Below, in pieces: positions 6,214 to 19,305 of a DNA stretch of 64,000 nucleotides; position 1 is the first letter of the stretch, and each line of letters begins with the position of its first letter. The stretch lies in NCBI GenBank assembly GCA_016196035.1, contig JACPYM010000060.1, positions 1-64,000 of the forward strand, given 5' to 3'. Origin of the DNA: Acidobacteriota bacterium (lineage in GTDB: Bacteria; Acidobacteriota; Blastocatellia; RBC074). The translations under genes and the position numbers were made by a program. The notes beneath the pieces are model-generated. The model searched no databases. It was not told where the DNA came from and saw only the letters and a program-made list of their open reading frames with translations.

Positions 6214-7557
6214 ATGAACGATCTATTTGCCAAATACGACATCCCCGCGCCGCGCTACACCAGCTATCCGACCGTGCCGTTTTGGAGCGAATCCCCGACG
6301 ACCGAACAATGGTTGCAGGAATTGGAAAGCGCCTTGCAAGACGAACGCGCGACGTGGGCCATTTATTTGCACCTGCCTTTTTGCGAAACGCTGTGCACCT
6401 TTTGCGCTTGCAACACCGTCATCACGCGCGATCACGGACGCGAGGAAACTTACCTTGAACTGTTGCGGCGCGAATGGTCGCTTTATCGCGAACGCTTGCC
6501 GCAATTGGCCGCGCGCCCGTTGCGGCAATTACATCTGGGCGGCGGTTCGCCCAATTTCTTTGCGCCTGAAAACCTCAAGCGCATGCTGACGCCGCTGCTG
6601 ACCGAAACGCAGTTGGACAAAGAGCATTTCGACGCTTCGCTTGAAGTTGATCCACGCCACACGACGCTTGAGCAGTTGCGCACGCTGGCCGAACTCGGCT
6701 TCACGGGCATTTCACTCGGCGTGCAGGACTTCAACGAAGAGGTGCAAAAGCTGGTCAATCGCCACCAGCCGTTCGTGCTGACGCAACGCCTGACCGAACA
6801 AGCGCGCGCGTTGGGCTACACGTCCGTCAATTACGATTTGATCTACGGCCTGCCGCGCCAGACCTTGGCGAGCATTGCAGCGACAATCCGGCAAACCATC
6901 GAGTTACGCCCCGACCGCATCGCGCTTTACAGCTTCGCGCTGGTGCCGTGGATCAAACCCACGCAGCGCGGCTACAAAGACGAAGATTTGCCGACGGCGG
7001 ACGAGAAACGCGCCTTGTATGAACTTGCACGCCAGATGTTGCTGGACGCGGGCTACCTTGAAATCGGCCTGGATCATTTCGCCTTGCCGCACGATGCCTT
7101 GAGCGTGGCGCAACGCGGCAACGGCTTGCATCGCAACTTTATGGGTTATACCGAGGCGCGCACGAACGTGCTGTTGGGCATGGGCGTCAGCGCCATTTCA
7201 GAGACGCCGACCTGCTTTCACCAAAACGAAAAGGCCTTTCCGGTTTACGAGCGGCGCTTGCAAGCGGGCGAGTTGCCGACGCTGCGCGGTCATTTGTTGA
7301 ATGCTGAAGATCAGGCGCGGCGCGAACAGATTCTGCAATTCATGACGCAATTCAAAGTCGTACTGACTGAAGAGCAGGAAGCCGCCGCGCCGCAATTCCT
7401 GCAACCGCTTTTTGAAGATGGTTTGGTCGAGTTGCACGCGCGCGAATTGCGGCTGACCGAACGCGGGCGGCCTTTCCTGCGCAACGCGACGATGTTTTTT
7501 GACGAACGCTTGCGGCGGCGGCGACCCCAAACCCGCACCTGCTCGCAGGCGCTGTGA
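6214..7557 (+). CDS. hemN: Oxygen-independent coproporphyrinogen III dehydrogenase
   Basis: HemN is a radical SAM enzyme that decarboxylates coproporphyrinogen III to protoporphyrinogen IX without oxygen. The iron-sulfur cluster motif is Cys57, Cys61 and Cys64 in FCETLCTFCAC, with the extra Cys66 typical of true HemN, as opposed to HemW-like proteins. The N-terminal KYDIPAPRYTSYPT and the GGGSPNF motif are also diagnostic. The ATG at 6214 lies 13 bp after hemL; the frame is open further upstream, but that would overlap hemL by over 100 bp. The protein ends in an arginine-rich tail. It is the last intact gene of the operon; hemE is absent here. Confidence 0.95.
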   Translation: MNDLFAKYDIPAPRYTSYPTVPFWSESPTTEQWLQELESALQDERATWAIYLHLPFCETLCTFCACNTVITRDHGREETYLELLRREWSLYRERLPQLAARPLRQLHLGGGSPNFFAPENLKRMLTPLLTETQLDKEHFDASLEVDPRHTTLEQLRTLAELGFTGISLGVQDFNEEVQKLVNRHQPFVLTQRLTEQARALGYTSVNYDLIYGLPRQTLASIAATIRQTIELRPDRIALYSFALVPWIKPTQRGYKDEDLPTADEKRALYELARQMLLDAGYLEIGLDHFALPHDALSVAQRGNGLHRNFMGYTEARTNVLLGMGVSAISETPTCFHQNEKAFPVYERRLQAGELPTLRGHLLNAEDQARREQILQFMTQFKVVLTEEQEAAAPQFLQPLFEDGLVELHARELRLTERGRPFLRNATMFFDERLRRRRPQTRTCSQAL

Positions 7558-12646: not shown

Positions 12647-12883
12647 GAACTTCCGCCGCACCTGATTCCCGGCTCCTGATTCCTGACTCCTGATAGTCAA
12701 AAAATCAGCCGCGCTTTTCCAGCGATCAGGAATCAGGAATCAGGAGCCGGGAATCGGCACGCGTCCGCTTGTTCGATGTTCACTCAATTTTGCAACGACC
12801 GAGACTGGGCGTCTTTTGGCGCATTTTTGCGGCTGAACACAGCGGTTGCACAACCATTTTGCGGCAAGTAAACTCCGTCGCCT
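12647..12883. repeat. Heptad-type inverted repeat between nagB-like gene and M16 peptidase
   Basis: Positions 12664-12694 and 12725-12755 are inverted copies differing at one of 31 bases. Each arm is built of seven-base units such as GAATCAG, GAATCAG, GAGCCGG, GAATC. The hairpin lies just after the NagB-like stop and could terminate transcription. The rest of the spacer, up to the ATG at 12884, shows no clear promoter. Confidence 0.85.
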
Positions 12884-14164
12884 ATGTGGGTAAAGCAGCA
12901 ATTCGATCTTCGGAAAACAACGCTCGACAACGGGCTGGTCGTGCTTTCAGAGCAGATGCAGCACACGCGCGCGGTCAGCTTCGGCGTTTTTTTGCGCACC
13001 GGTTCGCGCTACGAAACCGCCGAGCAGAACGGGCTAACGCACTTTCTGGAACACGCCCTCTTCAAAGGCACGCGCAAACGCTCGGCCTTGCAGATTGCCA
13101 AGGACGCCGACGTGCTGGGTGGCAATCTGAACGCCTTCACGGGCCGCGAGATCGTCGGCTTTCACAACGAGGTCGTGGACGAAGACTTGTTGGGCGGTTT
13201 TGAATTGCTGGCCGATCTGGTGACCGCGCCCGCCTTCGATCCCGCCGAACTGGACAAGGAACGCAACGTCATCCTCGAAGAAATCAAGATGACCGAAGAC
13301 ACGCCGGACGACATTCTGTTTGACGTGTTCTTCGAGAATTTCTACCCCAATCATCCGCTGGGCCGCCGTGTATTGGGCACGCCCGAAACCGTGGCGACAT
13401 TCCGCGATGAGCGGGTCGCCAGTTATTACGAGGATTTGTTCAGCCCGGAAAACGTCGTCTTGGCCGCCGCCGGCAATCTCAAACACGAACAGGTGCTGGA
13501 ACTGGCCCAGCAGTATTTTGGCGCCTTGTCTAAGCGCCACGCCGCCGTGCCCGCGACCGCGCCGCCGCCCACGCCGCACATCACCTTGCGCCGCAAGAAA
13601 GAACTGGAGCAATCGCATCTGGTGCTGGGTGTGCCGTGCCCGTCGTTGCTGAGCGAAGAGTTTTACACGACCGGCTTGCTGACAATGATTCTGGGCAGCG
13701 GCATGAGTTCTCGTCTGTTTCAATCGGTGCGCGAAGAGCGCGGCCTGGTTTATGACGTGTATGCTTCGGCCAATCAGTTTCAGGACACGGGCTTCTTTCA
13801 GATTTACGCAGGCACCTCGCCCGACCGGCTGACCGAGACGATCAACGCGATCATGGCCGAGTTGAAACGCTTGAAAAACGAACCCGTCAGCGCCGATGAA
13901 TTGCAACGCACGCGCGGCCGGATGCGCGCCTCGCTGATTTTGAGCCTGGAAGATTCCGGCTCGCGCTTGAGCGCGATGGCCGGTAACGAGATCGTCGAAC
14001 GCCGCTTCATCCCGCTGGAAGAAACCGTCGCGCGCATCGAAGCCGTCACCGCCGAAGACGTACAGCGACTGGCGCAAGAGCTGTTTCGGCCTGAAGCCTT
14101 TGCAGTCACGGCATTGGGCAATCTGAAAGGCTTCAAGTTCAAACGCGCGCAGCTTGAATGCTGA
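12884..14164 (+). CDS. M16 family zinc peptidase
   Basis: This is a pitrilysin-type metallopeptidase of the processing-peptidase-like branch. The inverted zinc motif is HFLEH, His53 to His57, with the distal Glu in ERNVILEEI. The second half carries the R/Y motif region SSRLFQSVREERGLVYDV. Length is 426 residues, normal for the single-unit enzymes. It lacks a signal peptide and should be cytoplasmic. Its last 41 residues are repeated, with changes, at the end of the following island. A good Shine-Dalgarno is not visible before the ATG at 12884. Confidence 0.93.
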   Translation: MWVKQQFDLRKTTLDNGLVVLSEQMQHTRAVSFGVFLRTGSRYETAEQNGLTHFLEHALFKGTRKRSALQIAKDADVLGGNLNAFTGREIVGFHNEVVDEDLLGGFELLADLVTAPAFDPAELDKERNVILEEIKMTEDTPDDILFDVFFENFYPNHPLGRRVLGTPETVATFRDERVASYYEDLFSPENVVLAAAGNLKHEQVLELAQQYFGALSKRHAAVPATAPPPTPHITLRRKKELEQSHLVLGVPCPSLLSEEFYTTGLLTMILGSGMSSRLFQSVREERGLVYDVYASANQFQDTGFFQIYAGTSPDRLTETINAIMAELKRLKNEPVSADELQRTRGRMRASLILSLEDSGSRLSAMAGNEIVERRFIPLEETVARIEAVTAEDVQRLAQELFRPEAFAVTALGNLKGFKFKRAQLEC

Positions 14165-14192
14165 TGAGTTGCGCGCGCGGCGCTGACTGGAC

Positions 14193-14219
14193 AGAGATTG
14201 CCTACAAGAGGCAATCTCT
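14193..14219 (+). terminator. Hairpin after the M16 peptidase
   Basis: AGAGATTGCCT (14193-14203) pairs perfectly with AGGCAATCTCT (14209-14219) over a 5-base loop. No clean T run follows, so termination is likely but not proven. It lies at the left edge of the AT-rich island. Confidence 0.5.
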
Positions 14220-14352
14220 CTGTTCGTCAAATACATAAAGAGTTTGGTACATCAAGCGAATAGCAATCCACTTGATTGGTCAAAGCTGGGGAGGCATGGA
14301 AGGCATAACTGAGACTGATCAATCATGAACCTAACCCATCATTGGAGGAATA

Positions 14353-14784
14353 ATGGCAAGCGAAATTGCAGGGCCTTTTATATCAGCGGCTGTGCTATGC
14401 CACATGGTCATCGAAGAGAAAGATGGTGTAAATAGCATTATCAGGATGGTTGACCGGCTGATTTTTACTGTCTCTGGTGAAGCACCTGAAGAAATGCCGT
14501 CAATTCCTGTCAACAACCTAGTTTTGTTTTTGGGTTTCAAGTCGGGTTTAGCCAGAGACAGTTACTTAATAAAGCTTACTTTATCTTCGCCTAGCGGAGA
14601 GGAAACTAATCAGGCGTCCTTCACTGCCTTATTTGAAGGGGAAGAGCGCGGGGTGAATGTTAAGCTTCAACTGAATTTGGAGATCAAAGAAGAAGGACTC
14701 CACTGGTTCAATGTCTACCTGCACGATGACCTTGTCACGAAAGTACCTTTGCGAGTGATCTATCACCGAGTCTTACAGGGGTAG
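14353..14784 (+). CDS. Hypothetical protein, DUF6941-like
   Basis: The ATG at 14353 is preceded by GGAGG, so this 143-residue gene is real. The pattern (an opening ALLC-like stretch, a mid-protein FLGF strand, and a closing predicted beta strand before a short basic end) resembles the small DUF6941 family, often found with accessory genes; this is from memory and only moderately sure. Codon use is clearly more AT-rich than that of the flanking genes, which fits horizontal origin. It converges on the next gene with a 50-bp overlap of coding ends. Confidence 0.65.
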   Translation: MASEIAGPFISAAVLCHMVIEEKDGVNSIIRMVDRLIFTVSGEAPEEMPSIPVNNLVLFLGFKSGLARDSYLIKLTLSSPSGEETNQASFTALFEGEERGVNVKLQLNLEIKEEGLHWFNVYLHDDLVTKVPLRVIYHRVLQG

Positions 14785-15088
14785 AGATAGCTATTGAAGC
14801 TGAACTTGTCCCTGTTGCGATGAAAACCTTATTGCTTCCAGTCACCAACTTTGTAGTGAAACTTCTGACCAGTGGTATGAGTTCCTTTTTTAGCTCATCG
14901 TCAGGTAGGTGACCACTATGGTTTTCCGCAAAAGCCAATTCAATCGTGTAGACCAGTTGTCTCAATTTCTCATCAGGCGATTGGTCAATGTCCCACGTAG
15001 CCGCTATCAACCATTCTTGAAATTGCTGCTTTGTGAGTTTTCCAGCGAGATAGATTGCTAATTTTGATCTGATTTCAAGGTCTGTCAT
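14735..15088 (-). CDS. Conserved hypothetical protein
   Basis: The 117-residue product begins MTDLEIRSKLAIYLAGKLT and has an all-helical, acidic first 75 residues; the pattern EWLIAATWDID and a late SGHLPDDELKKEL segment look conserved, as in a small helical family often seen beside other hypotheticals. Function is unknown. AAGGGG lies about ten bases before the ATG on its strand. Its start codon overlaps that of the next, divergent gene by two bases, and its 3' end overlaps the upstream convergent gene. AT-rich like the rest of the island. Confidence 0.6.
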   Translation of the reverse strand: MTDLEIRSKLAIYLAGKLTKQQFQEWLIAATWDIDQSPDEKLRQLVYTIELAFAENHSGHLPDDELKKELIPLVRSFTTKLVTGSNKVFIATGTSSASIAISTPVRLGDRSLAKVLS

Positions 15089-15395
15089 GAATAGTTACCC
15101 CTTATATCCAGTCAGTGATAAAGAGTTACGTGAGATGTTTAATAACGGTCAGTTTTGGGAAAAAGTTCAGCAAGGAGAGATGACCGCAAAAGTACTAAAA
15201 GACCGTCACCCCTCTTTGCCTTTAGCCAATGAGCCATTTTGCACGCGCAGCCAACTGGTCGCCTACTTTAATGATCAAAACGAAAGAGTTGCTCTTGTTC
15301 ATCAATATCTAAGAACGGATGGGACAATCGGCGCGAGCGGGCGACCTGATCCTAAAAGGCTCCTACTCAACGGCATTCTCTACGCTGTATTGTGA
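15087..15395 (+). CDS. Conserved hypothetical protein
   Basis: The 102-residue product has the C-terminal pattern HQYLRTDGTIGASGRPDPKRLLLNG, quoted here only as YLRTDGTIGASGRPDPKR, which looks like a conserved motif of a small family of unknown function. AAGG lies at a reasonable distance before the ATG at 15087. The gene is divergent from the previous one with overlapping start codons, so each promoter must lie in the other's coding sequence. No signal peptide or membrane segment is visible. Confidence 0.6.
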   Translation: MNSYPLYPVSDKELREMFNNGQFWEKVQQGEMTAKVLKDRHPSLPLANEPFCTRSQLVAYFNDQNERVALVHQYLRTDGTIGASGRPDPKRLLLNGILYAVL

Positions 15396-15433
15396 CAGCC
15401 GAGTTGAATCCTTACAAGCCAGATGCTTAGGCG

Positions 15434-15558
15434 TGGTCATCACCGCAGCAGACGTGCAACGGCTGGCGCACGAGCTTTTCCAACCTGCCGCCTTTGCCGT
15501 CACGGGCTTGGGAAATCTGAAAGGCTTCAAGTTCAAACGCGCCCAGTTGGTGTGTTGA
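15434..15558 (+). pseudogene. 3' fragment of a second M16 peptidase
   Basis: The frame ending at 15558 encodes ITAADVQRLAHELF and GNLKGFKFKRAQLVC, about 80 percent identical to the C-terminus of the peptidase that ends at 14164. Upstream of about 15434 the likeness stops. It is therefore the leftover 3' end of a paralogue, or a duplication made when the island inserted. It has no start of its own. Confidence 0.8.
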
Positions 15559-15622
15559 CGAACTGGGCGGCACGCGTGAACGTAGGAAGAGGCGTCACCC
15601 GCTCACCGAATGGAGGAACACG

Positions 15623-16188: not shown

Positions 16189-16307
16189 GCACGCGTAGCG
16201 CAACCCGCCGAGGTTGCGCGGCTTCATCAACTACGACCAGGGCTTCAATTGGCGCCGGCGCTCGACAGATGAAGCGGCGCAACCTCGGCGGGTTGCGCTA
16301 CGCGTGC
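16189..16307. repeat. Foldback element, copy 1
   Basis: Arms 16189-16227 and 16269-16307 are inverted copies with 38 of 39 bases matching, around a 41-base centre. The same arms occur at 22543-22649, so this is a dispersed repeat family. It could act as a terminator for the zinc-ribbon gene. Confidence 0.9.
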
Positions 16308-16439: not shown

Positions 16440-17237
16440 ATGCGCATTTGCATCCTGAGCAGCGGGAGTTCCGGCAATGCGACCCTGCTGGTCGCGGGTG
16501 AAACCCGTGTGCTGGTGGATTGCGGCCTGAGCGGGCGCGAAACCATCAAACGTCTGCAAGCCGTCGGCGAAGACCCTGCCAAACTCGACGGCGTCGTCAT
16601 CACGCACGAACACGGCGACCACGCGCGCGGCCTGTCGGCGTTGTGCAAAGCGCTGAACGTGCCCATTTATGTCGCCGATGCCACACTGGTGGCCTGTAAG
16701 CTCGGCGACAAGCAACCGCTGGTGCGGCGCGGCGAAGCCATCTGCTCAACGCAAGATTTCCAAATCGGGGCGTTCCGGTTCAGTCCCTTTGCAATCCCGC
16801 ACGATGCCGCTGACCCGCTGGCTTTCACGGTCGAAGCGAATGGCTGCAAGCTGGGGATGGCGGTGGATTTGGGCTACATCAACGCGCTGGCGGCGGAGCG
16901 CTTTCGCGGCGCCGATGCGTTGATCATCGAAGCCAACCACGAGATCGAAATGTTGCGCGCTTGCACCTATTACCCCTGGGCGTTGAAGCAGCGCATTCTG
17001 AGTCGTGTGGGCCATACCTCGAATGACGAGATGGCGCGATTTTTACGTGATGATTTCGACGGCAAGGCGGCGCATATCGTGTTGGCGCATCTGTCGCAAA
17101 ACACCAATCATCCTGAAATCGCCCGGCTGGCCGCGATTCAGGCTTTGCAGGAACGCGCGCCGCTGTTTAGCGCCGACGCCGAACGGCGCGTGCGCATCGC
17201 GCGATACGGCGCGCCGAGCGAGTGGATTGAGTTGTGA
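16440..17237 (+). CDS. Metallo-beta-lactamase fold hydrolase, WalJ/YycJ-like
   Basis: The 265-residue protein has the MBL metal motif THEHGDH near residue 60, plus the SSGSSGN start strand and the ALIIEANHE segment typical of the WalJ (YycJ) family, thought to be a DNA exonuclease in cell-cycle control. The ATG at 16440 begins the conserved first strand directly. The stop overlaps or touches the start region of the following VWA gene, suggesting co-transcription. Confidence 0.88.
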
Positions 17238-18642: not shown

Positions 18643-18673
18643 TTTCAACCAAGTGAGCTTTGATAATGCCGCT

Positions 18674-18922
18674 ATGAGTACGATTACTGTAGATGAACTA
18701 GAACGTACTGGCATGAGTTGGCTGCAACGCATCGCGGCAGGCGAAACGCTGCTGGTAATGCGAGCGGGCGAGCCTGTGGCAGAAATTAAACCAGTGGCGG
18801 CACCTGAGGCGGAACCTGGGCAATTGCGCCCGTATGGTTTGGCCGCGGGGGAATTTGTCGTGCCGGATGATTTTGACGACCCCTTACCTGATGAATTGCT
18901 AGACGCCTTTGAGGGAAGATGA
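18674..18922 (+). CDS. Antitoxin of the Phd/YefM type
   Basis: The 82-residue protein matches Phd antitoxins: MSTITVDELERTGMSWLQRIAAGE starts with the dimerisation and DNA-binding fold (only part quoted), and the acidic tail DDFDDPLPDELLDAFEG is the toxin-binding region. It overlaps the downstream PIN toxin by four bases, the standard order. A GTG at 18653 is an alternative start. The partner toxin is broken, so the antitoxin may be a relic or a decoy. Confidence 0.85.
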   Translation: MSTITVDELERTGMSWLQRIAAGETLLVMRAGEPVAEIKPVAAPEAEPGQLRPYGLAAGEFVVPDDFDDPLPDELLDAFEGR

Positions 18923-19305
18923 AGCTCTTGCTGGATACGGACCTCTTCCTTTGGTTCATCAACCGGGACGCACGCTTGCCAGCCAAAATGCGCGACGCGA
19001 TTCGTGAGCCGGGCAATCAAACGTATCTGAGCGTCGTTTCGTTTTGGGAGATCAGCATCAAATATCAAATCGGCAAGCTGCCTTTGCCGCAAGCGCTAGA
19101 GCAATACATTCCAGCGCAGCGTCGGCAGCACCAAATCAACGACTGACAACTTGATGAAATCAGTGTTGCGCAATTGGCGAGCTTGCCGTTAGTGCACCGC
19201 GATCCCTTTGACCGAATGTTGGTTTGCCAGGCATTGGCCCACAGCCTGACACTGATGACAATTGATCCTGTTTTTAATTCATATCCTACTGCGATTTTTC
19301 AATAA
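18919..19305 (+). pseudogene. VapC-type PIN toxin with an internal TGA
   Basis: The frame opens with LLLDTDLFLWF (first PIN aspartate) and continues through SVVSFWEISIKYQIGKL. A TGA at 19144-19146 interrupts it after residue 75. The same frame then resumes for 52 codons with LDEISVAQLASLPLVHRDPFDRMLVCQAL, the normal C-terminal half with the PIN motif HRDPFDR, to a TAA at 19303-19305. The frame is not shifted, so one base change at 19144-19146 explains it. The truncated product lacks the last active-site Asp and should be inactive as an RNase. Confidence 0.88.

Follow-up and report, generated by a model that had tools for sequence, protein, structure and literature searches.

Phage 21 inserts in icd of E. 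coli, and the element e14 does likewise. Integration of e14 at the 3' end of this gene leaves behind a 163-bp pseudo-icd', according to the account of e14 in PMC6379469. In an insertion of this type the target gene stays intact and its displaced 3' end is found at the far side of the element, and both features were observed at the locus described here. This locus lies in a stretch of 64,000 nucleotides from an Acidobacteriota bacterium (contig JACPYM010000060.1, positions 1 to 64,000, referred to as the window; coordinates are those of the window unless a contig is named), where an intact M16 peptidase gene is followed by an AT-rich island and then by a second, diverged copy of its own 3' end. 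The likeness to e14 in icd, as PMC6379469 presents it, is that a protein-coding gene is the target, at its 3' end, that the new end would be supplied by the element, and that the old end persists as a duplicate, which is 163 bp in icd and 130 nt here. The difference from that account is that the M16 island has no recognised integrase or phage gene and that the two ends are just 80% alike. Because no integrase was recognised in it, we read the island as a remnant and do not file it as an intact member of the e14/icd type; the scar is taken as a newly found example of an insertion type already known. A 3' end of an older gene also remains behind new foreign genes in the T6SS immunity arrays that are treated in PMC5361080, but there an effector has been replaced together with its immunity gene, whereas here the protein stays the same peptidase and the cargo bears no relation to it.

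The M16 gene, its second 3' end and the island

The M16 peptidase gene (12884-14164, + strand), which we regard as the target gene, is intact by ORF call and by Pfam (Peptidase_M16, 1.8e-35; M16_C, 6e-48) and encodes 426 aa. Its functional 3' end is repeat copy A (14046-14175, + strand), and 1394 nt downstream there is a second M16 3' end, repeat copy B (15440-15569, + strand), which is displaced and startless; the two are read as the att-like ends of an insertion. The copies are 80% identical over 130 nt (blastn E 1.9e-29); their translations agree at 32 of 39 residues, or about 82%, and both end at the shared stop, which bears out the protein likeness of about 80% given in the sequence-only reading from which this analysis started. 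In that reading the fragment matching the M16 end was placed at 15434-15558; the fragment does exist, but its start is at about 15439 and not at 15434. The homology has an abrupt onset within the M16 gene and ends 11 nt beyond the stop codon, which matches the layout given for e14 in icd in PMC6379469. Over 40 codons the copies differ at 23 bases, of which 2, 5, and 16 are at codon positions 1, 2, and 3, respectively, and since the mismatches are mostly at the third position both copies diverged under protein constraint, as coding sequence. The mutual identity of 80% compares with at most 68% to the relatives with a comparable M16 end, a comparison from which several invalid reverse-strand or shifted rows were left out. 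The longest run identical in both copies is 29 nt (14120-14148 and 15514-15542, + strand), with a chance probability of 0.012-0.018 in three shuffles, and it is a possible recombination core. Just 3' of the M16 stop there is a strong hairpin without a T run (14184-14229, + strand; -24.7 kcal/mol, z -5.5), which was not called by terminator prediction. Just upstream of the M16 gene, at 12664-12755, two arms of 31 nt, 97% complementary and separated by 30 nt, form an inverted repeat.

The GC content of the island (14165-15438) is 0.450 compared to 0.585 for the whole window, and the lowest-GC stretch of 1230 nt in the window (0.442) starts at 14195. Likewise, GC3 is 0.40-0.49 in the three genes of the island, g1, g2, and g3, compared to 0.66-0.75 in six neighbouring genes. 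The ORFs, the repeat and the GC content together confirm that an AT-rich island lies between the M16 end and a diverged second copy of it. The first gene, g1 (14353-14784, + strand), begins 188 nt after the M16 stop and is DUF6941-like; g2 (14735-15088, - strand) encodes a small protein and has a 50-nt tail-to-tail overlap with g1; and g3 (15087-15395, + strand) encodes a small protein with the conserved motif PFCTxSQ ... HQYLRxDGxxGASGxPDPK. A single CATG (15086-15089) contains the ATGs of both g2 and g3. A link of 44 nt (15396-15439) separates g3 from copy B; the corresponding position, after g3, is where an integrase starts in two phage contigs. Family searches recognised neither an integrase nor a phage gene in the island, and at E 0.001 none of the three genes had a PHROG match.

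The trio in bacteria and in viral contigs

The trio behaves as a unit, with g1 and g3 forward and g2 between them in reverse, and this order and orientation was found at twelve loci, five of which are viral contigs. At all 12 loci with both g2 and g3 their start codons, which were chosen manually for this count, overlap head to head; at 9 of them both ATGs lie in one CATG as in the window, and at L082, L086, and L087 the overlap is 16, 7, and 11 nt, respectively. As the starts overlap, the ribosome-binding region of each gene lies within the coding sequence of its partner, and in the window AAGG and AAGGGG precede the two starts. Opposing genes with a shared start-codon palindrome, kept from phages to chromosomes, are a clear experimental target.

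When families and structures were examined, g1 was found to align over much of the DUF6941 model (PF22091), but in the window it scores 23 bits and is below the curated gathering cut-off of 27, whereas its orthologues in L080 and L070 are above it with 44.3 and 30.9 bits, respectively. The structure predicted for g1 from six sequences is an Ig-like beta sandwich with a mean pLDDT of 84. The best match of this model is the C-terminal part of AlkC (Z 11.0, rmsd 1.9 over 100 residues), and Foldseek gave PDE6D/UNC119 at 7e-5; the fold so predicted is a common one and carries no functional inference. The g3 model, from five sequences, also has a mean pLDDT of 84; at E 0.001 it matched nothing in PDB or BFVD, and the best VIA Z was 3.6, which is not proof of a new fold. 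A search of solved structures by sequence gave no useful match for any of the three. The g2 of the window had no family match above chance level, g2 and g3 had no usable match in Pfam, NCBIfam, PADLOC, and PHROG, and with the PADLOC models (2023 library, E 1) none of 9 trio proteins was matched.

In the phylum, g3 was found in 8 of 396 genomes, which belong to several families. By identity the closest g3 (68%) belongs to another family, whereas that in a genome of the same family is 57% identical, and a closest relative outside its own family is what horizontal transfer predicts. G004 is the only one of 37 relatives with all three genes, in the order and orientation seen in the window. In 6 of the 7 g3 genomes other than the window's own, g1 stands beside g3, and each of these six has a g2-like frame between the two, four of the frames being detected by tblastn with the g2 of the window alone. 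In the seventh genome, G338, a contig end is close by and there is a transposase-like ORF, named by eye. On the locus of this genome that has the 68% g3 (L077), large ORFs look phage-like by eye and are without a structural PHROG match. The g3 of G118 is divergent past about residue 68, and g1-like proteins also occur in some genomes in which searches gave no g3. No g3 was found in PLSDB plasmids, nor in a sample of 398 Firmicutes genomes, a search that had no positive control. A search aimed at Cyanobacteria (G409) gave six loci, each at a contig position that the first phylum had already supplied, and so nothing new.

Most bacterial trio loci are without recognised phage genes nearby. The adjacency of an integrase is clear at 1 of the 7 bacterial loci outside the window, that of G141, where g1 has a tyrosine integrase (PF00589, 1.6e-19) at a distance of 0.3 kb and g3 is directly adjoined by the C-terminal part of an integrase (phrog_1, 3.5e-13). 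There is a weak trace at one more, in G004, where the fragment after g3 is weakly integrase-like (E 0.04), and among the flanking genes searched at the others no integrase was recognised beside the trio. At the other 7 bacterial trio loci, flanks of up to 3 kb per side were searched and contained no gene-end duplicate. In G141 (L145, 3288-10579), three long ORFs on that side of the trio where the integrase lies resemble by eye a type I restriction-modification set.

When IMG/VR was scanned with the g1 and g3 profiles, five contigs were obtained (L083-L087). All five have g1 forward, g2 reverse, and then a forward third ORF, which is matched by the g3 profile in four; in L083 this ORF is divergent, was missed by the profile and was aligned manually. 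The record of L087 includes a terminase large subunit, a portal, a major head protein, and a repressor; a portal is also found in the L086 record and in L084, a tail fibre in the L083 record, and an endolysin in the L085 record. Integrase adjacency is clear in 2 of the 5, and these two, L086 and L087, are contigs with phage head genes: the integrase ORF begins 6 nt past the g3 stop in L086 (phrog_1, 3.1e-29) and 83 nt past it in L087 (phrog_1, 6.1e-47). Neither g3 nor g1 was found in INPHARED phages. The locus connects an orphan AT-rich island with a small phage module for which the family libraries used have no entry as a unit.

Origin of the island

The sequence-only reading had offered two origins, one in which a second, tandem M16 gene was largely replaced by the island and one in which it carried its own copy of the M16 3' end, and had named a tandem pair in relatives as the check on the former. 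We sampled 38 genomes, which are the window's own and 37 others. Each of them has one close M16 gene, further M16 proteins being at most 33% identical among the matches listed, and no tandem M16 pair was found in any of the 38. A scan for the M16 3' end was tried at 47 loci, of which 46 were readable (L047 is without the 3' end); in the downstream DNA examined, none of these 46, all outside the window, shows a second 3' end, and the same test does detect copy B of the window. What usually stands behind M16 is a gene of the metallo-beta-lactamase fold (MBL), named by eye, which in the window is at 16440-17237 (+ strand): a related gene lies within 1.5 kb behind M16 in 20 of 29 relatives. The 9 relatives without it there include 8 of the 9 other family members examined, and in these the gene may be farther off. 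The position of the MBL gene in the 20 relatives indicates that the island interrupts an old synteny, and it means that copy B faces the old neighbour and that the island is located where M16 ends. The only genome of the same genus, G001, has an M16 with 72% protein identity to that of the window over residues 6-235, where the match ends together with the contig, so that an empty site is not visible, and a close MBL gene was not found in G001. Nor is the arrangement ancestral in the relatives, which was the observation that would have spoken against both origins: the trio is present in 2 of the 38 genomes, the window's own and G004, and in G004 the trio is on contig C101 and M16 on C90, which indicates that the arrangement is not ancestral at the M16 site. 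Two further features of this neighbourhood were seen: an inverted repeat at 16189-16307, between a zinc-ribbon-like ORF and the MBL gene, with 40-nt arms that are 98% complementary and 39 nt apart; and, by eye, at 18653-19305, a Phd-like antitoxin ORF followed by a PIN-type toxin split into two ORFs (18919-19146 and 19174-19305), which may be a broken VapBC pair.

Our preferred explanation, to which we give about an even chance of being right, is that a temperate phage, or another element with an integrase, once inserted site-specifically in the M16 3' end and that the island is what is left of it. The element would have brought its own diverged version of the last 40 codons, so that integration kept the peptidase intact through copy A and left the old 3' end of the host as the startless copy B. 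Copy B would then be the old end of the host, either whole or to the right of the crossover, and the element would have contributed copy A, or its last part at the least. Recombination may have had the 29-nt identical run as its core, or else the crossover may have been at the left edge of the repeat. Nearly the whole element, the integrase included, would then have been lost and the trio would have remained; what we infer is site-specific integration, loss of the rest, and a benefit to the host. The duplicate, its coding-type divergence, the foreign composition, the conserved trio, its presence in phages, and the interrupted M16-MBL synteny are shown directly and all count for integration, and the position of the trio beside phage integrases supports an integrated element. 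What counts against it is that the trio must have been trimmed by two separate deletions, left and right, that a clear integrase neighbour was seen at just 2 of 5 viral and 1 of 7 other bacterial loci, and that none of these 7 has a gene-end duplicate in the flanks searched. With only 44 nt between g3 and copy B, the element must have lost its integrase, and on the M16 side it must have lost all but the 188 nt that precede g1. An island that brought its own M16 3' end, the second origin in the sequence-only reading, is the best fit to a single M16, a native neighbour beside copy B, coding divergence, and phage cargo; it is not proven, as no integrase was recognised and no virus with an M16 end was found, the viral contigs giving 38 matches to one 21-nt pattern, none of which is M16. 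If it is correct, the M16 3' end adds a candidate protein-coding integration site in Acidobacteriota, a phylum with little-known viruses.

The coding-type divergence of copy B could also come from a once functional gene, that is, from a former tandem second M16 gene which the island mostly replaced, but the single close M16 in each of the 38 genomes, the absence of a second 3' end at all 46 loci, and the MBL gene that closely follows M16 in 20 of 29 relatives speak against this origin, and it is very improbable. A trio that arrived by a transposon, gene cassette or satellite, with the 3' duplicate made in a separate event such as local duplication and drift, would agree with the finding that most bacterial trio loci are without recognised phage genes or a flanking repeat; it is nonetheless improbable, for it requires two independent events at one spot, and a local duplicate would be a startless copy drifting without codon bias, yet the differences are distributed 2/5/16. 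The explanation that comes nearest to site-specific integration is homology-facilitated illegitimate recombination with linear DNA from a congener that carried M16, or its 3' part, followed by the trio. The left side would have paired by homology and the right joint would have formed without homology inside the recipient M16, of which the last 40 codons became copy B. No integrase is required for this, the abrupt left edge of copy B is accounted for, and a nearly identical anatomy is expected, with which the layout of copies A and B is compatible. An identity of 80% is one that two congeners could have, the M16 of G001 being 72% identical in protein over the part compared. The process, with a displaced 3' end as its outcome, is known from the T6SS arrays covered in PMC5361080, and the process is also dealt with in PMC3240628. 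However, it is termed quite rare where PMC5361080 discusses it, and it leaves unexplained both the 29-nt identical core and a phage trio as cargo that has an integrase for a neighbour in phages. We consider one-sided recombination rather unlikely, and it is the absence of an integrase together with the loss of nearly all of the element that keeps site-specific integration at no better than even.

Possible function of the trio

The presence of the trio in several phages and in several chromosomes without recognised phage genes suggests that it is kept because it benefits the lysogen. A module of this kind, for defence or addiction, is the most likely function, though we propose it tentatively, from the persistence of the trio without phage neighbours, the conserved overlaps, and the restriction-like set that was noted by eye near the trio of G141. 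The chief alternative is a role in regulating lysogeny. The trio resembles the anti-phage hotspots in phages and satellites, in the form in which PMC9122126 describes them, in that it is a small cargo module in phage genomes and lies beside an integrase in two contigs, but it differs from what is described there in that none of the 9 trio proteins matches a PADLOC model.

As far as our searches go, the trio is undescribed: a literature search by family name found no paper mentioning DUF6941 or PF22091, INPHARED and PLSDB have no g3, and nothing useful was found in the literature on overlapping start codons. One specific but doubtful picture is that of an undescribed phage-borne trio, useful to the lysogen and outliving its prophages, in which g2 and g3 would form a mutually exclusive switch or a toxin-antitoxin-like pair and g1, with its predicted Ig fold, would sense or bind a target. 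A switch is conceivable because, with the g2 and g3 starts in the same CATG, the transcripts would be antisense to each other's translation start, which would make their expression exclusive. The third slot of the trio may be exchangeable, since in L083 a divergent gene (6759-7082) stands in the place of g3 with the same shared CATG start.
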